From Terriglobia bacterium (GTDB lineage Bacteria > Acidobacteriota > Terriglobia > Acidiferrales > UBA7541): 64,000 nt of DNA. The stretch is from contig JAIQGD010000001.1 of assembly GCA_020072765.1 (NCBI GenBank), forward strand, positions 1-64,000. Reading direction: 5' to 3'. The notes under the pieces were generated by a model. That model was not told where the DNA came from. It made no database searches and was given only the letters and a program-made list of their open reading frames with translations. Of this stretch, positions 46,692-63,192 are shown in pieces (position 1 is the first letter of the stretch; the number at the start of each line of letters is the position of its first letter). Made by a program: the position numbers and the translations under genes.

Positions 46692-47414
46692 GTGACGCGC
46701 AGGTCCGAGGTGAACGGCGCTCGCGGGAAGGCGGGTGATCCTTTGCACACGAAACAGAACGGGCAGTGGCGGAATCTTCGCGCATGGAGAGGCTGGTCGG
46801 CCGTTTTGATGGCGGCCGCACTCGTCATCGTCGCCAGCTTGTGCGGCGTCCGTGCAGTAAGAGGACAAACTTTCCTGATTCTGGCAGCGGGCGCGGAGCC
46901 TGGCGCCGGGCCCGGAGTCCCGCCGGACTCCTCGGTTTTCACGCCCGCCCACCGCTCCTTTCTGGATGCCGTGAAGGAATACTTCGGTATCCAATCCACA
47001 CCGGTGCAGCCGATTGCCTTCACCCACAAGATTCACCTCCAGAACGGCCTGCAGTGCACGAATTGCCATGCGGGCGTCACGCAGGGCCCCAATGCCGGAT
47101 ACCCCAGCATCACCTTCTGCATGGCCTGCCACCAAGCCATCGCCGCGGACAAGCCTGAAATCAAGAAACTGACCGCGTACGCCGCGAATGGCCAGGAACC
47201 GCCCTGGCAACGCGTCTACTGGTTTTATCCCACGGCACACGTCCGGTTCCAGCATGCCCCCCACATCCGCAATGACATTGCCTGCGAGCAATGCCACGGC
47301 GATCTGGCCCAGCAGACCGTGGCGGTAAAAACCAAGAATCTCAACATGAACTTTTGCCTGACCTGCCACAAGGCCAAGGGAGTTTCAGTGGACTGCATGA
47401 CGTGTCACTACTAG
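46692..47414 (+). CDS. Pentaheme c-type cytochrome (class III / Qrc-A or ActA-like)
   Basis: CTNCH, CMACH, CEQCH, CLTCH, CMTCH; FTHKIHLQNGLQC; N-terminal TM anchor. Confidence 0.88.
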   Translation: MTRRSEVNGARGKAGDPLHTKQNGQWRNLRAWRGWSAVLMAAALVIVASLCGVRAVRGQTFLILAAGAEPGAGPGVPPDSSVFTPAHRSFLDAVKEYFGIQSTPVQPIAFTHKIHLQNGLQCTNCHAGVTQGPNAGYPSITFCMACHQAIAADKPEIKKLTAYAANGQEPPWQRVYWFYPTAHVRFQHAPHIRNDIACEQCHGDLAQQTVAVKTKNLNMNFCLTCHKAKGVSVDCMTCHY

Positions 47415-47477
47415 CGCCTCGCTGCAACGCTGGCGCTTACGACGCTCGACACGAACGAGCCGAGGAGATCTGAACCG

Positions 47478-49766
47478 ATGAAACGCCGAACGTTCCTGAA
47501 ACTTTCCACAGTGGGCGGTGCTGGCGCCGCGCTGGCCGGGTGCGGCGAACAGACGAATCAGCTGATTCGTTTCATCCCGGACGAAACGCTGGTGCCGGGC
47601 GTGGCCACATGGAGACCCGGCATCTGCACGCTATGCCCCGCGGGTTGCGGCCTGCAAGTGCGGATCATGGAAGGCGACGCCGAGGTGATCCGGAACGGCC
47701 AAGCCGGCGTTGTGAAAATGGGACTGGCCAAGAAACTGGAAGGCAACCCGCAGCATCCCGTGAATCACGGCACGTTGTGCGCTCGTGGCCAGGCCGGTCT
47801 GCAAGTCACCTTCAATCCCGATCGTGTGCGGCATCCCCTGAAGCGCGTGGGACCGCGCGGCTCGGGAAAATTTGCCGAGATCAGCTGGGACGAAGCCCTT
47901 CAGGAACTTCTCACCCATCTCTCCCCGCTGGCTTCCCCCGGCTCCGCTCATTCGATGGCCTTCCTGGCGGGCCCGCTCCGGGGACAACGGCGCGTGTTGA
48001 TCGAGCGATTTCTCTCCGCGTTTGGCGCCGCGCAGTTTGTTCCTTTCGAGTTGTTCGACGATTCGGTGTTGCGGGCGGCCAACCAGCTCAGCTTCGGCCG
48101 CGACCAACTGCCGACATTTGACCTCGCCGAGTCCAATTTCGTGATGTCGTTTGGCGCGGACTTCCTGGGCACATGGAATTCCCCGATGGCCCAAAGTGTC
48201 GCGTACGGGATCATGCGCCGGAATCGTCCGGGCGCCCGCGGAAAATTCGTGCAGGTCGAATCGCGCATGTCCCAGACCGGAGCGAACGCAGACGAGTGGA
48301 TCCCGGCCCATCCCGGCACCGAGGGTCAACTGGCCCTGGGGATCGCTCACATCATCCTGAGCGAGCACCACCGGTCGCCAGAGGCCGCCGGCGCCGCCGG
48401 ATCACGCATCGAAGGATGGCACAACGGTTTGCCGGAGTATTCCCCCGAGGCGGTTGCATGGAAGACGGGAGTTCCTCCGCAAACGATCATGCGGTTGGCG
48501 CGCGAGATGGCCGTGCAAACACCGGCTGTCGCCATCGTGGGAGGCGCCCCTCTCGCCCAGACCAATGGATTGTTCACCGCGCTCGCAATCAACGCTCTCA
48601 ATGCCCTCCTGGGCGGCGTCGGAAAGCCTGGTGGCCTTCAGTTCACGCCTCGGCCTCCGTTGCCCGGCCATGGATCGTCCGAGACGAATTCGAAGGGACT
48701 GACTGGCACTTCGGTTCGTTCGCTGGCGCAACATATTCTCTCCGGCCAGGCGCGCACGGTCGAATCGCTCCTGCTGTACGAGGCGAATCCCGTGTTCGCC
48801 ACACCAGCGACGTGGCACGTGAAGGAGGCTCTGGAAAGCGTCCCCTTCATCGCCAGCTTGGGCCACTTCATTGATGAAACGAGCGTTCTCGCCGACCTGA
48901 TTCTCCCCGACCATTCCTACCTGGAGTCGTGGATGGATGACGTCCCGGAATCCGGGACCACCGCGGCCGTGGTGAGTGTGGCGCCACCGGCCATGCACCC
49001 TTTGCACAACACGCGCGCGATGCCGGACGTCCTTCTCGACGTCGCCCACCGCCTGGGGGGACGGGCAAGCCAGGCACTGCCGTGGAAGAGCTATGAAGAG
49101 ATGCTGCAGGCGGCGCTCGCTCCTCTCGCGCATTCTCCTAGCTCGATCACCGCCAGCAGCCCGGACGACTTCTGGACAAAAGTAAAAGACCAGGGCGGCT
49201 GGTGGAGCGCGAAAGGCAGCGCTGCACCCGAACGAGAGAGTGCCGCCCATGCCGTCCCTGCGCTGAAGAACGAAGAGGCACAGTTCGATGGACCGGCTCC
49301 TGGGTATCCGTTCTACTTTCTGCCTTACGCTTCGCAACAGTTCTTCGACGGGCGGCACGCCAATCTTCCCTGGATGCAGGAACTGCCGGAAGTTCTTTCG
49401 ACCGGAATGTGGGGCACCTGGGTGGAGATCAACCCGCAGACCGCGGCGACGCTGAAAATCGAACAGGGCGACCTTCTGGAAGTGGCGTCGCGGCACGGCT
49501 CGGTCCGCGCGCCCGCTCTGCTGTCGCCGGGCATTGCACCGGACGTCGTCGCCATGCCGGTCGGCCAGGGACACGTGGAATACGGCCGCTATGCCAGCGG
49601 CCGCGGCGCGAACCCGATCAAGATCCTCGCGCCGGACGTTGAACGTACCACAGGCTCATTGGCCTGGGCGGGAACCCGCGTGAGTGTCGCAAAGGCAGGG
49701 ACCGGCGAGCTAATTCTGCTGTCGGGCGGCCCCACCAAGTGGAGCCAGGAGAGAGTGAGGCGGTAA
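47478..49766 (+). CDS. Molybdopterin oxidoreductase-family subunit of a CISM complex (QrcB/ActB1-like)
   Basis: KRRTFLKLSTVGGAGAALAGC TAT/lipo-like; CTLCPAGCGLQVRIMEGDAEVIRNG...NHGTLCARGQAGLQ; ISWDEALQELL; GTWVEINPQTAATLKIEQGDLLEVASRHGSVRAPALLSPGIAPDVVAMPVGQGH. Confidence 0.88.
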   Translation: MKRRTFLKLSTVGGAGAALAGCGEQTNQLIRFIPDETLVPGVATWRPGICTLCPAGCGLQVRIMEGDAEVIRNGQAGVVKMGLAKKLEGNPQHPVNHGTLCARGQAGLQVTFNPDRVRHPLKRVGPRGSGKFAEISWDEALQELLTHLSPLASPGSAHSMAFLAGPLRGQRRVLIERFLSAFGAAQFVPFELFDDSVLRAANQLSFGRDQLPTFDLAESNFVMSFGADFLGTWNSPMAQSVAYGIMRRNRPGARGKFVQVESRMSQTGANADEWIPAHPGTEGQLALGIAHIILSEHHRSPEAAGAAGSRIEGWHNGLPEYSPEAVAWKTGVPPQTIMRLAREMAVQTPAVAIVGGAPLAQTNGLFTALAINALNALLGGVGKPGGLQFTPRPPLPGHGSSETNSKGLTGTSVRSLAQHILSGQARTVESLLLYEANPVFATPATWHVKEALESVPFIASLGHFIDETSVLADLILPDHSYLESWMDDVPESGTTAAVVSVAPPAMHPLHNTRAMPDVLLDVAHRLGGRASQALPWKSYEEMLQAALAPLAHSPSSITASSPDDFWTKVKDQGGWWSAKGSAAPERESAAHAVPALKNEEAQFDGPAPGYPFYFLPYASQQFFDGRHANLPWMQELPEVLSTGMWGTWVEINPQTAATLKIEQGDLLEVASRHGSVRAPALLSPGIAPDVVAMPVGQGHVEYGRYASGRGANPIKILAPDVERTTGSLAWAGTRVSVAKAGTGELILLSGGPTKWSQERVRR

Positions 49767-49805
49767 TCAGGAACCGCGCACAAACGGCCATGAGGAGAAA
49801 CGCTG

Positions 49806-50507
49806 ATGGCGCATAGATGGGGAATGGTAATCGACCTCGACCGCTGCACCGGCTGCGAGGCATGTGTGGCGGCGTGCCACGCCGAAAACAACATCGCCAC
49901 CGTTGACGCGGCGCAGGCCGCCAACGGCCGGACCATGCACTGGATCCATGTGGAGCGCTATTGGGAAGGCGAGTTCCCGAACGTGCGCGCGAGGTTTCAA
50001 CCGGTCCTCTGCCAGCAGTGCGATGCGGCTCCCTGTGAGCCGGTCTGCCCCACGTATGCGAGTTATCACAACTCGGACGGTCTCAACGCCCAGGTTTACA
50101 ACCGGTGTATCGGCACTTTTTATTGCGCCGATGCCTGTCCTTATACGGCGCGGTACTTCAACTGGTTTAATCCGGTTTGGGACAAGCCGCTGAATCTCCA
50201 GCTCAATCCCGATGTCTCGGTCCGCGGGGTCGGCGTGATGGAAAAATGCACGTTTTGCATCCAGCGCATCACTGCGGCAGAGATCCAGGCGAAGGCAGAG
50301 AACCGCGACGTGAAGGACGGGGAGGTCAAACCGGCCTGCGTGCAGTCCTGTCCCACGGCGGCCATGGTTTTCGGGGATCTGGAGGATCCGAGCAGCCAGG
50401 TCTCTCGCCTGGCGGGTTCGATGCGAGCCACCACGCTGCTTGCCGAAGTAGGCACGTTTCCCAAAGTCATCTATCTCGAAAGAGAGTCTTCGCATGCCAA
50501 CGAATAG
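49806..50507 (+). CDS. 4Fe-4S ferredoxin-type electron-transfer subunit (QrcC/DmsB-like)
   Basis: MVIDLDRCTGCEACVAACHAEN; CQQCDAAPCEPVCPTYA; CIGTFYCADACPYTARYFNW; CTFCIQRI...CVQSCPTAAMVFGDLEDPSSQVSRL. Confidence 0.92.
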   Translation: MAHRWGMVIDLDRCTGCEACVAACHAENNIATVDAAQAANGRTMHWIHVERYWEGEFPNVRARFQPVLCQQCDAAPCEPVCPTYASYHNSDGLNAQVYNRCIGTFYCADACPYTARYFNWFNPVWDKPLNLQLNPDVSVRGVGVMEKCTFCIQRITAAEIQAKAENRDVKDGEVKPACVQSCPTAAMVFGDLEDPSSQVSRLAGSMRATTLLAEVGTFPKVIYLERESSHANE

Positions 50508-51903
50508 CATGGCGCAGGCCAATGTGATTGATATTAAAGACGAACAGGTCCGCGAGGATCTGCTGCGGCCGTTATTCCATACGTCTCGGCGATTCTACGT
50601 CCTCGTATTTCTCCTGGTGGCCATTGGCCTTCCCGGCATCGTGACCTTTGTATATCAGATCTACACGGGGATGGGCGTGTCGGGGCTTACGCGCCCTATT
50701 TTCTGGGGCTTCTATGTCACGAACTTTGTTTTCTGGATCGGTATCAGTCACGCGGGAACGCTGATTTCCGCCATTCTTCGCCTGGTCAACGCCACTTGGC
50801 GGCGTCCGGTCACTCGCTGCGCCGAAGCGATCACCGTTTTTGCCCTGGCGATCGGCGCTCAGTACCCGATCATTCACCTTGGCCGCTCCTGGTTGTTTTT
50901 CTGGCTGGTGCCGTATCCCAGCGAACGCGGCATCTGGCCGAATTTCCGATCTCCTCTGGTTTGGGACTTCTTCGCCATCAGCACGTACATCACGGGCAGC
51001 TTGACTTTTTTGCTTCTCCCGATCATTCCGGATTGGGCCATGGTGCGGGATCGGGCGACGGGGTTGCGCAAACGAATCTACACCGTCCTTGCCTTCGGCT
51101 GGCGAGGCACGCCTCGGGAATGGCATCGGCTCGAAATGGCCATGAAAATCATGGCCGTCACCATCCTTCCTGTCGCGGTCTCCGTTCACACGATTGTGTC
51201 GTGGGACTTCGCCATGGCGCCCGTCCCCATGTGGCACTCCACCGTCTTCGGCCCGTACTTCGTGGCGGGAGCCATCTTCAGCGGGATTGCGGCCCTGATT
51301 ATCGCCATGGCCCTGTTGCGCAAGACCCTGCATCTGGAGGCTTACCTGAAACCCAGCCACTTCAGCAATCTGGGGAAGCTTCTGCTGGTGATGAGCCTGC
51401 TGTGGATCTACTTCATCTTCGCCGAACGGCTGACCGTGTGGTACGGCAACCAGCCGGCCGAGATGGCTGCCTTCTGGTCCATTCAAAGCGGGAGATTCGC
51501 AATTCTGTTCTGGACGATGGTCACCTGCAATTTCCTGATTCCGTTTCCGATTCTCGCGATCAAAAAACTGCGGACCATCACTGGCACCGTGATTGCGGCC
51601 TCGACGATCGTCGTGGGAATGTGGCTGGAGCGCTTTTTAATCGTGGTTCCTCCCCTGGAGCACAAATACCTCCCCTACGACTGGGGAAGATATCACCCGA
51701 GTTGGGTCGAGATCATGATTACAGTCGGGACAGCGTCGGGCATGGTCCTGCTGTACGTTCTATTCGCAAAGTTCGTGCCGCTGATTTCGATTTGGGAATT
51801 GAAAGGCGGGCAGCACACGAATCCCGTTCCGCATCAGGCGCAGCCCGCGGTGGCCGGGACCCAGGTTCGCCTGGACCCCACTTTGCCGGCAGCCAATAGC
51901 TAA
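50494..51903 (+). CDS. NrfD/PsrC-family integral membrane subunit (QrcD/ActC-like)
   Basis: Long polytopic protein; GFYVTNFVFWIGISHAGTLISAILRL; SVHTIVSWDFAMAPVPMWHSTVFGPYFVAGAIFSG. Confidence 0.9.
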   Translation: MPTNSMAQANVIDIKDEQVREDLLRPLFHTSRRFYVLVFLLVAIGLPGIVTFVYQIYTGMGVSGLTRPIFWGFYVTNFVFWIGISHAGTLISAILRLVNATWRRPVTRCAEAITVFALAIGAQYPIIHLGRSWLFFWLVPYPSERGIWPNFRSPLVWDFFAISTYITGSLTFLLLPIIPDWAMVRDRATGLRKRIYTVLAFGWRGTPREWHRLEMAMKIMAVTILPVAVSVHTIVSWDFAMAPVPMWHSTVFGPYFVAGAIFSGIAALIIAMALLRKTLHLEAYLKPSHFSNLGKLLLVMSLLWIYFIFAERLTVWYGNQPAEMAAFWSIQSGRFAILFWTMVTCNFLIPFPILAIKKLRTITGTVIAASTIVVGMWLERFLIVVPPLEHKYLPYDWGRYHPSWVEIMITVGTASGMVLLYVLFAKFVPLISIWELKGGQHTNPVPHQAQPAVAGTQVRLDPTLPAANS

Positions 51904-51909
51904 GGATGG

Positions 51910-52443
51910 ATGGACTTTATGAATGCTATCTATGGGCTCTTTCCTGATTCACAGAGTGCACGACGCGCGGTCGCAACTCTCCGTGCGGAGAGCTCTCGCC
52001 TCCACTTCGTCCCCGAGGCCATCGTCATTATTTCTGCCGCGCCACTCGAGGAAGAAGGCTTCGGTTGGGAGGAGCAACACTCAATCATGCCCTGGCTCGC
52101 CCCGCTGGGCGCCATTGTGGGAGGCACATGCGGGTACCTGCTTTCGGCTTTTACCCAACGCACCTATCCCCTGCCCACCGGCGGCATGCCCATCGTGGCG
52201 ATGTGGCCCACGGGAATCATCATGTACGAACTGACGATGCTGGGAGCCATTCTCACGACAATCGTGGCGTTTCTGGTCAGTGCGCAGCTGCCTCACTATG
52301 GAAAGCACGTCTATGATCCGGAAGTGACCAACGGAAAAATTCTGGTGGGCGTGGCCGATCCGGACCCCAATTGCCGGGGCGAAATCGAGAAACACCTTCA
52401 CGCAAGCGGTGCCGCGCAAGTTAAGGAATTCTCGAAGGAGTAG
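51910..52443 (+). CDS. DUF3341 protein (ActD-like)
   Basis: IYGLFPDSQSARRAVATLR...PLGAIVGGTCGYLLSAFTQRTYPLPTGGMPIVAMWPTGIIMYELTMLGAILTTI...LVGVADPDP. Confidence 0.88.
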   Translation: MDFMNAIYGLFPDSQSARRAVATLRAESSRLHFVPEAIVIISAAPLEEEGFGWEEQHSIMPWLAPLGAIVGGTCGYLLSAFTQRTYPLPTGGMPIVAMWPTGIIMYELTMLGAILTTIVAFLVSAQLPHYGKHVYDPEVTNGKILVGVADPDPNCRGEIEKHLHASGAAQVKEFSKE

Positions 52444-52581: not shown

Positions 52582-53034
52582 CTATTGATTCAGCAGCGGG
52601 ATGTTCTTGGCCTGCGGTGGCGGGGGCAAGGTTTTCAGAAACGCGTAGATATCCGCGAGATCCTGGTCCGACGCAACCTTGGCGGTATAGGGAGGCATCG
52701 TGCCCGCCGGATGGCGGACATATTGCAAGAACGCTGCAAACGGAATCGCGTCCGGGCCCAGACGCGGGCCCACGCCGCCGTGAGCGGCGCGGCCGTGGCA
52801 TTCGTAGCATCCATAGGTGGTGAAAAGCTTTTTGCCCGCCTCGGTGTTCCCGGCCGGCGCGGAAACGGATGGCGAAGGCTTCCCCGCCTTCTGCGCCTCC
52901 ACGCGAAAGCACACCAGAAGCAGCGTCACGGCCATCGCCGCGAGGGAGATGAATCGCACGACGCTGAATGCCAGCAATCGAGTGGCCCCCATTCCCTGCG
53001 AAGCGGTCTTCTCGGCCCGGCGGCCTGCAAGCAT
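52582..53034 (-). CDS. Monoheme cytochrome c (periplasmic/anchored)
   Basis: GNTEAGKKLFTTYGCYECHGRAAHGGVGPRLGPDAIPFAAFLQYVRHPAGTMPPYTAKVASDQDLADIYAFLKTLPPPP; start ATG at 53034 follows the ThDP gene. Confidence 0.88.
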   Translation of the reverse strand: MLAGRRAEKTASQGMGATRLLAFSVVRFISLAAMAVTLLLVCFRVEAQKAGKPSPSVSAPAGNTEAGKKLFTTYGCYECHGRAAHGGVGPRLGPDAIPFAAFLQYVRHPAGTMPPYTAKVASDQDLADIYAFLKTLPPPPQAKNIPLLNQ

Positions 53035-53056
53035 ATTTTTCACCTGCCTATCCTCC

Positions 53057-55024
53057 TCAGCGCGGCTGCGTGAGCACATCGACGAGCGCCGGTTCCCCGC
53101 GCTTGACCACTTCGATCGCTCGCCGGATGGCCGGCGCGAGATCCTTGGGATCGCTGATGGGGCCTTGCCCGAAGATGCCCATGCTCGCCGCCAGCTTGGA
53201 ATAATCAATGGGCGGATCGGTCAGCGTGGATCCGATGGGCCCGCGCGTGATGCCGCGATTGTGCTGGCTGGCCATGCGCTGCACTTCCATCACTTCCTGA
53301 TGGTAGGCGCGATTGTTGTGCATCATGATCAAGATCGGGATGCGATGGTGCGCCGCGGTCCAGAGCACGCCGGGGGCAAACATCATGTCGCCGTCGTTCT
53401 GAATACTGACAGTCAAGCGGCCGTGCTTGCGGTTGCCCAGCGCGGCCCCAATCGACGCCGGCGCGCCATACCCGACGCCGTACGCACCCTCGCCGCCGAT
53501 ATACTGATAGTGCTTGTCGAAATTCCACAGGCGCAGCGGCCAGCGGTTGACGAACTGGCAGTTCGACACCAGCGACCAGTCTTCGTCCTTGAGCTGCGCC
53601 CACAGCTCCGCGGACATCCGCGCGGTGCTGATCGGGCTGGCGTCCCATCCCGAGGCCGCAGCCTCGCGCGCCTGCTGCATGGCCTGCTCGTGGACGCGGG
53701 CCAGCTTGGCGCCTCGGTCCGCGAACGTCCGTTTGCGGTCATCGGTCAGCTGGCGCTTCACGGCTTCCAGGAGTGACGGCAACGTGGCTTCCGCATCCGC
53801 CGCAATCGCCAGATCCAGCGGCTGATACCTTTGCACCTCCTGATAGTTGCTCTTCATATACAAATCGTTGGCCGTGATGCTGAGGAGCTTGGTCCCGGGT
53901 TTGGTGACCACTTCCCCACTGCGGTAGACCTGCCCGCGAACTCGGTGGACGGTGCCCCAGAAATCGGTGAGTTCGAGGCCGGCAATCACGTCCGCCCCGG
54001 CGATGGCCGCGCCGCCGCGTTCGGTCTGGTTGAGGGGATGCCGCGTGGGGAAATTCATGCGGTTGTTGCGGTCGATCACGGCTGCTTGCAATGTTTCGGC
54101 GAGTTCGATGGTGAGGGCCAGGCCCGCCGGGGTGCGCGCGGAACGGTCGAGAACGAGTACTGGGTTTTCAGCCGCCACCAGCAAACGAGCGGCCTCCGCC
54201 ACAGCGTCGGGATCACCCGCGGGAGGCGACGTCATCGTCAGCTTCGGGACCGCCGGATCCGGCCATTCTGGAATGGGCCGCTCCTGCAGTTCGTGATCAG
54301 CGACCAGGGCCACCGGCATGGTCGGCGGAGTCATGGCGATCTTGTACGCCCGCACCGTGGACTCGGCGAAATGCGTGAGCGAGACCGGCTGGTCGTCCCA
54401 TTTCACGAAATCCCGAATCGTGGCGGCGGGGTCCTGCGCGCTATGGACCCAGTCCACGAACCCGAAGCGCGCGGCGGCATCGCCAAAATTGCCCAGCATC
54501 AGAACCACCGGCACGCGGTCGCAATACGCGTCGTAGATGGCCATGGCGGCGTGTTGCAGCCCCACCGTGCCGTGGACGCAGACCAGCAGGGGCTTGCCCT
54601 CGATCTTGGCGTAACCGTGCCCCATGGCCACGGCCGACTCTTCGTGGCAACAGGTGATGAATTCGGGGCTCTGGTTGCCGCCGTAATTGATGAGCGATTC
54701 GTGCAGGCTGCGAAACGTATTGCCGGGATTGGCGCACATGTATTCGAAACCGAGCGACTTGATGACGTCCACCATGAAGTCCGAGCCGGGCCGCTCGACG
54801 ATCTGCAGATCGAGGTTCGCAATCGCGGCCGCCTCGGGAGTTCTCGACGCGGGGGGCGCCAGAGGCGCGGTGGCGTTGCGGCTTTCGGCGGACGCTTGCG
54901 CCTGTGGGGTCTCTTGTGCGTTTCCGGCCAGAGGACTCGCCACCAGGGCGGCCGCCCCGACGGTTGCATTCCTCAGGAAATCACGGCGATCAACGGAGAT
55001 TTTCTTTGGCTTCTTCATGCTCAT
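53057..55024 (-). CDS. TAT-signal-bearing thiamine-diphosphate-dependent enzyme (acetolactate synthase/benzoylformate decarboxylase superfamily)
   Basis: VDRRDFLRNATVGAAALVASPLAGNAQ twin-arginine signal; CCHEESAVAMGHGYAKIEGKPLLVCVHGTVGLQHAAMAIYDA with catalytic Glu; NDGDMMFAPGVLWTAAHHRIPILIMMHNNRAYHQE (GD...NN ThDP motif). Confidence 0.88.
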   Translation of the reverse strand: MSMKKPKKISVDRRDFLRNATVGAAALVASPLAGNAQETPQAQASAESRNATAPLAPPASRTPEAAAIANLDLQIVERPGSDFMVDVIKSLGFEYMCANPGNTFRSLHESLINYGGNQSPEFITCCHEESAVAMGHGYAKIEGKPLLVCVHGTVGLQHAAMAIYDAYCDRVPVVLMLGNFGDAAARFGFVDWVHSAQDPAATIRDFVKWDDQPVSLTHFAESTVRAYKIAMTPPTMPVALVADHELQERPIPEWPDPAVPKLTMTSPPAGDPDAVAEAARLLVAAENPVLVLDRSARTPAGLALTIELAETLQAAVIDRNNRMNFPTRHPLNQTERGGAAIAGADVIAGLELTDFWGTVHRVRGQVYRSGEVVTKPGTKLLSITANDLYMKSNYQEVQRYQPLDLAIAADAEATLPSLLEAVKRQLTDDRKRTFADRGAKLARVHEQAMQQAREAAASGWDASPISTARMSAELWAQLKDEDWSLVSNCQFVNRWPLRLWNFDKHYQYIGGEGAYGVGYGAPASIGAALGNRKHGRLTVSIQNDGDMMFAPGVLWTAAHHRIPILIMMHNNRAYHQEVMEVQRMASQHNRGITRGPIGSTLTDPPIDYSKLAASMGIFGQGPISDPKDLAPAIRRAIEVVKRGEPALVDVLTQPR

Positions 55025-60425: not shown

Positions 60426-61661
60426 TCAATCGCCGGCTGCGCCCTCTGGAGGTTGGGTGGGGGAAGATTCCTTCCAGGGCGGAAGCAGTTTCACAAAAAT
60501 GTAGAGCAGGACGAAGGGCACCGCCAGTAACACGACCGACACAAACAGCCCTTCCATCCCCGTCAGCGCCATCTTGTACACCGTCAGCCCACGCAGGCTC
60601 TTGGAGAACAACTGGCCGCCGATCACCACGTTCCACCGCGTGCTGAAGATGCCGATCTGGATCAGGACGGCGCTGCCCAGATAGACAAGTCGCCGCAACT
60701 CCTCTGGAAACCGCACCAGAGGGCGGCCAAACGCGGGGCTCACGAACGCAAGGCAGAGTAGCGGTAACACCGTCCCGGTCAGCGCCTGTAACACAATCAA
60801 GCTGAGAAATAAACGCGTCGAGATCAGCGTAGACAATATCTTGATGGATTCTTCAGCTTCGTAGAGCCGGTGAATGAAATCCAGGATCTCCAGCGAGAAA
60901 TCCAGGATCAAGGCGTAGAACAGAAACGATGCCAGCTTGTCCAGGCAAGCCATCTCGAACCCGCGGCGAACCAATCCAGTCAGCAGATACAGGATCAGCA
61001 CCAGGGCAATACCGGAGACAATGGCGGAGAACAGAAAGACGATGGGAATCAGCACGCTGCTCCACCACGGATTCGCTTTGACGGAGCCGAAAATAAAGCC
61101 CACGTAGCCATGCAGCAGGAAGGCCGAAGGAATGCCGATGATGGTGATGAAGCGCACGGCCTTGCGATCGAACTCCACCGCTGCTTCGGAGATATCCGTG
61201 GCTCCCAGCGTCAGGATCAAATGAATCCATCTGCGCAGCCCGTGCTCGTTCCGCGCCCACAGAACCAAGTCCCGCCGGTAGTCGAACCAGATCTCCAGCA
61301 GGAGCACCACGGCCAGATACCACGCATAGATGAAGCCGAACATCGCCATCGCCGAATGCGTGTTCGGAGTGAGGAAAATCTCCAGGGAGCGCTCCGGATG
61401 CCCGAGGTGGAGCAGGAGCGGGAGAGGCGCAATCAGCAGGAATGCCAGCGCCGTCAACAGCGCCAGCCGGTACGTGGGCTCCACTTCCTTGACGTTGAAG
61501 ACGCGCTCGAGCGAAGCCAGAATGAACGCTCCCGCCACGAGCCCCGTGATGTAGGGATATACTACGATTAGCAAGCTCCATTGCAGCTCGACTTCGTTGG
61601 GATAGATGTAGCCAGACACCTGCTGCAGCACGTTGTTCAATTGCTCAGTGAGCCCCTGCAC
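60426..61661 (-). CDS. NrfD/PsrC-family integral membrane subunit
   Basis: QWSLLIVVYPYITGLVAGAFILASLERVF...PLPLLLHLGHPERSLEIFLTPNTHSAMAMFGFIYAWYLAVVLLLEIWFDYR. Confidence 0.9.
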   Translation of the reverse strand: MQGLTEQLNNVLQQVSGYIYPNEVELQWSLLIVVYPYITGLVAGAFILASLERVFNVKEVEPTYRLALLTALAFLLIAPLPLLLHLGHPERSLEIFLTPNTHSAMAMFGFIYAWYLAVVLLLEIWFDYRRDLVLWARNEHGLRRWIHLILTLGATDISEAAVEFDRKAVRFITIIGIPSAFLLHGYVGFIFGSVKANPWWSSVLIPIVFLFSAIVSGIALVLILYLLTGLVRRGFEMACLDKLASFLFYALILDFSLEILDFIHRLYEAEESIKILSTLISTRLFLSLIVLQALTGTVLPLLCLAFVSPAFGRPLVRFPEELRRLVYLGSAVLIQIGIFSTRWNVVIGGQLFSKSLRGLTVYKMALTGMEGLFVSVVLLAVPFVLLYIFVKLLPPWKESSPTQPPEGAAGD

Positions 61662-61663
61662 GG

Positions 61664-62467
61664 CTAGCGTACCTCCCCGTCCAGATTCGCGTAGTAGACT
61701 TTGGGCTCGGTATTGAGCTGCGGCTTGAGCACCTGAATTTCGTTGAAGCGCACAAAGCGGGCCAGCGGACTGCTACGCGCCGTCACATCTCCAAACACTC
61801 GCGCCCCGGTGGGGCATACCTCCACACAGGCCGGGACTTTCCCCTGCACCACGCGGTGATAGCAGAAGGTGCACTTCTCGGCCGTGCGCGTGACGGGATT
61901 CAGGAAGCGCGCCCCGTACGGACAGGCCTGGATGCAGTAGCGGCATCCAATGCAATAGTCCTTATCCACGAGCACGACACCATCACGGGTGAGGAAGGTG
62001 GCGCCGACCGGACACACCTGCACACAGGGAGGGTTGGCGCAGTGGTTGCAGAGCTTGGGCACAAAGAAGGTGCGCAGGATGCCCTTTTCGCTGACCGTGG
62101 AGGGAAACCCTTCGATTCCGCCATTGGGACTGGTTACCACGGTTTGTCCGTCCGTCGTGATCACGTAGCGCTCCACCCAGGTGCGGAAGTAGAACGGCTC
62201 GCGCGGGACATTGTTCTCGGTCTTGCAAGCATCCACGCAACGGCCGCAGCCGATGCACTTGTTCACACTGATGCCCATCCCGTAGTAGTGCTCTTCCGGC
62301 TTGTAGTTCGGCTCCTCGGCGCCTGCAGCCACGCCTTCCGCCACGGCGATGGTCGCCAGCAGTAACGGAGCCGCCGCCGCGCACTGCTTCAAAAATTCCC
62401 GCCGCTCCTGGGAGACTTGCTCCGGTGCGCCGGCAATAGCTTGAGGAGGCTTCGCTTCAGGGGTCAT
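61664..62467 (-). CDS. Tat-type 4Fe-4S ferredoxin subunit (NrfC/DsrO-like)
   Basis: QERREFLKQCAAAAPLLLATIAVAEG; CIGCGRCVDACKTEN; CNHCANPPCVQVCPVGATF; CIGCRYCIQACPYGARF; CTFCYHRV...CVEVCPTGARVFGD. Confidence 0.92.
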   Translation of the reverse strand: MTPEAKPPQAIAGAPEQVSQERREFLKQCAAAAPLLLATIAVAEGVAAGAEEPNYKPEEHYYGMGISVNKCIGCGRCVDACKTENNVPREPFYFRTWVERYVITTDGQTVVTSPNGGIEGFPSTVSEKGILRTFFVPKLCNHCANPPCVQVCPVGATFLTRDGVVLVDKDYCIGCRYCIQACPYGARFLNPVTRTAEKCTFCYHRVVQGKVPACVEVCPTGARVFGDVTARSSPLARFVRFNEIQVLKPQLNTEPKVYYANLDGEVR

Positions 62468-63192
62468 GGGACCTCCGGAAAATGGGCGTAGTGGCATTGC
62501 CAGCAGACGTAGCGCTCCCCATGAGTACTTAGGTCCACGCGCGCAACGTCGGGAGCTCCCTTCGCTCCCTGGGCATGGCACTGCCCGCAGAATTCACGGG
62601 TCTGCGGCTTCGTGGGGGTGCTCAACAACGGATTGATCTTGTGCGTTTCCTCGACGTGGTGGCACGTGGTGCAAGGAACCGTGGTGTGCTTCGACAGAGC
62701 CTTGGTTCTGGCGATTTCACCGTGGCAGGCGCTGCACTCCTGGGGCGTGTGCGGAGGAACCGGCGCGTGCGGGTTGTGGCAGGTGATGCAGGGCCGCCCG
62801 GGGTTGTGGCTGACGGGATCAATTTGCGGAAAGCCGGTCGGCCGCGACGGGTCATAGCCATGGCACAGCGGGCAAAAACCACGCTGGCGAGGGGCCGGGG
62901 GCTTGTGATCCGCGGGGGATTCCACATGCGCCGCCTGAGCGCCATGGCAGACCTCGCACGCCACGCTCCGGTGCCGCGCCTCGTCGTGAACCTTGGCGAT
63001 ATCCGGATGGCATAACGCACACGCTTCGTGCCCCGCATAGACTTCGGGCTTGGAAGCATTGGCATCAATCGCGGCGGCTCGGTAATGACCCAAAGCGCCG
63101 AAGGTCTTGGGGACCATGTAATGCCGGGCAACGGTCAAGCTCCCACCCAGGATCAGGAAGACAACCACCAGACGATTCACCTGTTGGGGCAT
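62464..63192 (-). CDS. Octaheme c-type cytochrome
   Basis: Eight CxxCH: CALCH, CEVCH, CPLCH, CITCH, CSACH, CTTCH, CGQCH, CWQCH; N-terminal TM helix. Confidence 0.9.
   Translation of the reverse strand: MPQQVNRLVVVFLILGGSLTVARHYMVPKTFGALGHYRAAAIDANASKPEVYAGHEACALCHPDIAKVHDEARHRSVACEVCHGAQAAHVESPADHKPPAPRQRGFCPLCHGYDPSRPTGFPQIDPVSHNPGRPCITCHNPHAPVPPHTPQECSACHGEIARTKALSKHTTVPCTTCHHVEETHKINPLLSTPTKPQTREFCGQCHAQGAKGAPDVARVDLSTHGERYVCWQCHYAHFPEVP

Follow-up and report, generated by a model that had tools for sequence, protein, structure and literature searches.

Introduction

Pyruvate oxidase and PoxB are the known redox branch of the BFD/ALS/PDC superfamily of thiamine diphosphate (ThDP)-dependent enzymes. 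To our knowledge, the characterised members of this superfamily reside in the cytoplasm or in an organelle. Breslow intermediates formed on ThDP give electrons to FAD, to FeS clusters and to artificial one-electron acceptors such as ferricyanide, and a c-type haem is therefore a chemically reasonable acceptor as well. Haem c forms only outside the cytoplasm, and the Tat system exports folded, cofactor-bearing proteins. A first-pass annotation of the 64,000-nucleotide stretch of Terriglobia bacterium DNA analysed here (the window) described a ThDP protein with a twin-arginine signal followed by a cytochrome c gene, and proposed that the two couple 2-oxoacid or aldehyde chemistry to the respiratory chain outside the cytoplasm.

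Results

The window encodes a BFD-like ThDP enzyme

The ThDP reading frame was re-read in the window and opens with ATG at the expected coordinates (Table 1). Pfam detects TPP_enzyme_N (1.2e-18) and TPP_enzyme_C (1.3e-22), and the central domain, TPP_enzyme_M, is recognisable but weak and under the cut-off. An N-terminal Tat signal of ~36 residues leads into a low-complexity linker that extends to approximately residue 75. The AlphaFold2 model has a mean pLDDT of 85.8, and its best fold matches are BFD-type enzymes, 2-hydroxyacyl-CoA lyase, benzaldehyde lyase and glyoxylate carboligase. The two terminal TPP domains are accompanied by the catalytic Glu and the GDG...NN motif (as NDGD...NN) that typify the BFD/ALS/PDC enzymes, and the ThDP protein is a member of the BFD-like superfamily, as first annotated.

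Table 1. Coordinates of the ThDP enzyme and cytochrome c features in the window.
Feature	Position	Strand	Basis
Monohaem cytochrome c gene with export signal	52582..53034	-	Pfam, profile, alignment
NDGD...NN, residues 543-571, Mg/ThDP-binding motif	53312..53398	-	alignment
ThDP-dependent enzyme gene, BFD-like, 655 aa	53057..55024	-	ORF list, Pfam, alignment, model
Codon of H151 (VHGTVGLQH), BFD His70 position	54572..54574	-	alignment
Codon of catalytic Glu E128 (CCHEESAV)	54641..54643	-	invariant column; aligned to BFD catalytic Glu
Predicted Tat signal peptide, VDRRDFLRNATVGAAALVASPLAGNA, cleaved before Q	54917..55024	-	sequence, alignment; cleavage site predicted by eye

An alignment of 48 relatives 47-73% identical to the window protein was used to locate conserved residues. 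Invariant positions are R13, R14, F16, E128, H151, H158, D544, G545, D546, N570 and N571. E128 aligns with the catalytic Glu of BFD and H151 with its His70, two residues of established role. The cofactor motif is NDGD(543-546)...NN(570-571) with D544 as the Mg-binding Asp; both this motif and the catalytic Glu are thus retained as the first-pass annotation stated, with the refinement that the usual GDG reads NDG. Replacement of this first Gly favours a catalytically altered protein acting as a sensor or scavenger (of thiamine, for example), or a cytochrome with a structural or regulatory role. The invariance of E128, H151, D544, N570 and N571 across the 48 sequences makes such a role very improbable. 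Residues specific to the exported clade described below include M84, E109, D198, E351, N393, E577 and M579.

The scores against NCBIfam/PRK models are 240 bits for PRK08327, 151 bits for BFD, 69 bits for pyruvate oxidase and 61 bits for PoxB-type pyruvate dehydrogenase. Every model matched scores below its own cut-off, including the BFD (150.8 versus 493 bits) and pyruvate oxidase (69 versus 742 bits) equivalogs. These values bear on whether FAD bound in the middle domain, as in pyruvate oxidase, relays electrons to the cytochrome. This arrangement has a redox precedent in pyruvate oxidase and PoxB, and a middle domain is discernible; against it, both oxidase-type models score far lower than those for BFD and PRK08327, most of the top fold matches are to BFD, lyases and carboligases, and the sequence gives FAD no support. 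An FAD relay is accordingly judged improbable. Loss of the FAD site, raised in the first-pass annotation, is consistent with these data because the best homologue match is the FAD-free BFD.

The ThDP enzyme carries a conserved Tat signal

The N-terminus of the ThDP protein (VDRRDFLRNATVGAAALVASPLAGNAQ) is a canonical Tat signal. The signal, MSMKKPKKISVDRRDFLRNATVGAAALVASPLAGNAQ, has an (S/T)RRxFLK-type motif, a hydrophobic stretch and an AxA-like site, all kept in relatives. Its RR and F are invariant in the 48 relatives, which span several phyla, and a Tat motif is present in 73 of the 76 homologues at least 47% identical that have a visible N-terminus. The motif occurs in 1/19 homologues at 37-44% identity, where the one hit (L100) comes from a spurious RRR string. 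The export signal is well supported by this conservation, and we infer a periplasmic location in vivo.

The proposal that the RR motif is fortuitous and the protein stays in the cytoplasm draws on one observation, the failure to find TatC in this draft assembly (96.6% complete). TatC was found in 12/12 congeners and in 18/18 other carriers searched; complete absence of a Tat system is unlikely and the draft state of the assembly best explains the gap. Cytochrome c assembly proteins are encoded in the genome. A cytoplasmic enzyme is also hard to reconcile with RR-x-F invariance over several phyla, with a sister clade whose non-exported proteins simply begin at the catalytic domain, and with a partner whose haem is attached outside the cytoplasm, and this reading is the least credible of those considered.

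RR motifs also occur in distant Acidobacteriota ThDP proteins at 25-30% identity (L024-L026, L028, L029, L033-L038), and in the 1.5 kb fetched no cytochrome gene adjoins theirs. ThDP enzymes may thus have acquired Tat export more than once. The genome under study has a third RR-bearing ThDP enzyme from another subfamily (L007:1384-3375, minus strand, G000 contig C78), and no cytochrome was noticed alongside it.

A dedicated cytochrome c gene recurs beside the enzyme gene

The cytochrome gene starts with an ATG located 22 nt past the ThDP gene on the same strand, the spacing reported at first; an alternative GTG at 53043 leaves 13 nt. The protein matches PF13442 (Cytochrome_CBB3; 1.3e-11) and has a CYECH haem site, a Met in GTMPPY and a C-terminal NIPLLNQ. 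C76, C79, H80 and M113 are invariant in 40 partner cytochromes, which provides the CxxCH and distal Met of a class I cytochrome c. Remote sequence relatives include the p-cresol methylhydroxylase cytochrome subunit and respiratory cytochrome domains.

Co-location was measured in homologues with enough downstream sequence, and the control was drawn from the same fetched loci. A CxxCH gene lies directly downstream on the same strand in 59/72 loci of homologues at least 47% identical, compared with 4/263 for the other genes of these loci and 2/21 for homologues at 37-44% identity. Recurrence in dozens of loci against this control rules out chance adjacency. The predicted intergenic gap is between -23 and 26 nt in 48/56 pairs, mostly 2-14 nt and sometimes overlapping, with starts picked by rule and single values possibly off. 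The cytochrome gene is near but rearranged in some loci (~50 nt upstream in L085, upstream in L068, on the opposite strand in L083 and L086), and other enzyme copies lie apart from it (L011, L045-L047, L055, L060, L070). No fusion of the two proteins was seen. A paralogue 66% identical on contig C97 of the same genome likewise combines a Tat signal with its own cytochrome, as do 7/7 intact copies in congeners (L125-L131).

Searched against 396 phylum genomes, a profile built from the 40 partner cytochromes gives 21 places scoring >100 bits, and 20 of them adjoin a ThDP gene of the exported clade. The next-best match drops to 90 bits, and the weaker ones are mostly in longer open frames. The genomes bearing the enzyme and those bearing the cytochrome subfamily are the identical 15/396, a co-occurrence that arises partly by construction, since paired copies, some of them from these phylum genomes, went into the profile. 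Both genes are present in 24/24 further genomes, nine of which were chosen because the first locus seen lacked the standard order. In three genomes (G396-G398) an enzyme gene lacks a neighbouring cytochrome gene, and an unpaired cytochrome gene is present at another site. The ThDP enzyme-cytochrome pairing is well supported by these comparisons. Neither of the refuting outcomes named in the first-pass annotation that sequence comparison can address, an unconserved signal or a cytochrome not co-located in relatives, was borne out.

In a tree of 102 ThDP homologues, the exported, cytochrome-linked proteins all fall into one clade (67 rows, SH-aLRT 99). The sister clade (17 rows) has no signal and, except for L113, no cytochrome. 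Because the exported clade has both features and its sister essentially neither, the signal and the partner appear to have been gained at the base of the exported clade. The structural reading, a predicted exported ThDP enzyme with a dedicated cytochrome in a single clade, is supported.

The pair extends to soil bacteria of several phyla and reaches Bradyrhizobium, Caballeronia and Novosphingobium. A Caballeronia zhejiangensis RefSeq plasmid (NZ_CP084287) encodes a 'thiamine pyrophosphate-binding protein' with a Tat signal and a 'c-type cytochrome' 8 nt apart, and a Novosphingobium plasmid holds the same pair. RefSeq annotation of the pair is generic only. The literature search found no description of a Tat-exported ThDP enzyme paired with a cytochrome, in keeping with the first-pass annotation; its coverage of subscription journals was poor and an earlier account is possible. 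As far as the search reached, this two-gene unit has been overlooked.

The cytochrome is the sole recurrent neighbour

Neither clustering nor Pfam counts of the flanking genes revealed a conserved third gene. Flanks of 1.5-8 kb around L125-L131 contained none of the other window neighbours apart from one outer-membrane protein match. An alternative complex III-like operon at 46692-52443 on the plus strand, convergent with the pair, contains a multihaem cytochrome, a Tat-type Mo/FeS-like protein, an FeS protein, NrfD and ActD. A link between the pair and these genes was dropped as the association is not kept in relatives or congeners. A second electron-transfer module with a Tat-type FeS protein and NrfD, preceded by multihaem cytochromes and cytochrome b, is located at 60426-62581 (minus strand) and from contig C114 of the same genome onward (L120).

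A dihaem cytochrome gene follows the pair in the close relatives L040, L041 and L044, and then a PQQ dehydrogenase-like gene where the contig continues (L041, L044). The L041 PQQ dehydrogenase-like protein also matches the 'acido-empty-quinoprotein' model under its cut-off. Such neighbours, together with the small iron-sulphur subunit and Mo-type aldehyde dehydrogenase-like gene that follow the pair in L090, fit a periplasmic non-oxidative lyase, decarboxylase or carboligase whose product is an aldehyde, the cytochrome then serving a separate dehydrogenase (a Mo-type aldehyde oxidase or PQQ alcohol dehydrogenase) that oxidises the product. The BFD-type active site is in line with this scheme. 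The cytochrome alone recurs, its subfamily is seldom found away from a ThDP gene, and in L041 and L044 a dihaem cytochrome already accompanies the PQQ-like neighbour, so a separate dehydrogenase is unlikely, yet it is the alternative to be taken most seriously.

Substrate hints are weak and mixed. The window has an MFS gene of the monocarboxylate type. Around the C97 paralogue lie an E1 pair and genes for an aldehyde dehydrogenase and a hydroxyisobutyrate-dehydrogenase-like protein, Caballeronia has aromatic catabolism genes, and some proteobacterial copies have extracellular solute-binding proteins nearby. The gene after the paralogous pair (L119:11663-12706, minus strand) has no Pfam match and resembles the 4,5-dihydroxyphthalate decarboxylase/substrate-binding family.

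Discussion

An enzyme-acceptor pair is the simplest reading of the locus because haem c is extracytoplasmic, Tat carries proteins already folded around their cofactors, and no neighbour other than the cytochrome is conserved. Redox coupling of the enzyme to the cytochrome is likely, and the pair probably forms a periplasmic ThDP-dependent oxidoreductase whose cytochrome draws electrons from the Breslow intermediate. In this mechanism the BFD-like enzyme would fold with ThDP/Mg2+ in the cytoplasm and be exported by Tat, and the co-expressed monohaem cytochrome c would be secreted separately and receive its haem in the periplasm. The Breslow (enamine/carbanion) intermediate would arise when E128-activated ThDP attacks an aldehyde, an acyloin or a 2-oxoacid, the last losing CO2. 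The cytochrome would accept the two electrons singly, hydrolysis of acyl-ThDP would release a carboxylic acid, and the reduced cytochrome would pass electrons on to a terminal oxidase. The oxidation of the ThDP intermediate, the direct flow of electrons from ThDP to haem and the substrate class are inferred. Counted against this mechanism is the normally non-oxidative character of BFD-type enzymes, one of which could make an aldehyde while the cytochrome serves something else. The first-pass proposal is supported as to an exported enzyme with a cytochrome partner, and its chemistry is plausible and preferred. The stricter claim of a new redox enzyme class, a flavin-free extracytoplasmic ThDP dehydrogenase with a c-type haem as the direct oxidant of the Breslow intermediate, is put forward tentatively, with slightly less than an even chance of being correct; such an enzyme would spare bacteria the import of the 2-oxoacids, aldehydes or acyloins that they respire.

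The pair suggests that electrons from vitamin B1 chemistry can enter the respiratory chain directly, outside the cytoplasm. With an exported ThDP enzyme that has a cytochrome of its own, thiamine chemistry would take place in the periplasm. If electrons go straight to haem, the pair would add an oxidation route for the ThDP intermediate beside FAD, lipoamide/NAD and FeS clusters. Common soil bacteria (Acidobacteriota, Bradyrhizobium) and cultured isolates carry the pair, which makes direct testing feasible.

Comparison with known systems

The best whole-length model, NCBIfam NF006203/PRK08327 ('thiamine pyrophosphate-requiring protein'; 240 bits versus a cut-off of 456), has no assigned function, and the non-exported sister proteins tested likewise score under its cut-off. 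BFD (PDB 4q9d, 1bfd) shares the fold, the catalytic Glu, the His70 position, the Mg/ThDP motif and the lack of any sign of FAD, at ~20-23% identity in structure alignments. Ser26 of BFD corresponds to Asn102 in the window protein, a position that is Ser in most relatives and variable across the family. BFD differs in being cytoplasmic, releasing its aldehyde and having no cytochrome. Pyruvate oxidase and PoxB resemble the proposed system in oxidising the ThDP intermediate, PoxB into the respiratory chain, but they work on the cytoplasmic side with FAD and a quinone or O2 as acceptor, and their models score much lower on the window protein. In 2-oxoacid:ferredoxin oxidoreductase a metal centre takes electrons singly from the ThDP intermediate, as proposed here, whereas that enzyme is cytoplasmic, uses FeS clusters and a CoA acceptor, and has another domain order. 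The flavocytochrome c p-cresol methylhydroxylase shares an extracytoplasmic arrangement in which the catalytic enzyme has a small monohaem cytochrome c subunit of its own; its catalytic subunit, in contrast, is a flavoprotein unrelated to ThDP enzymes.
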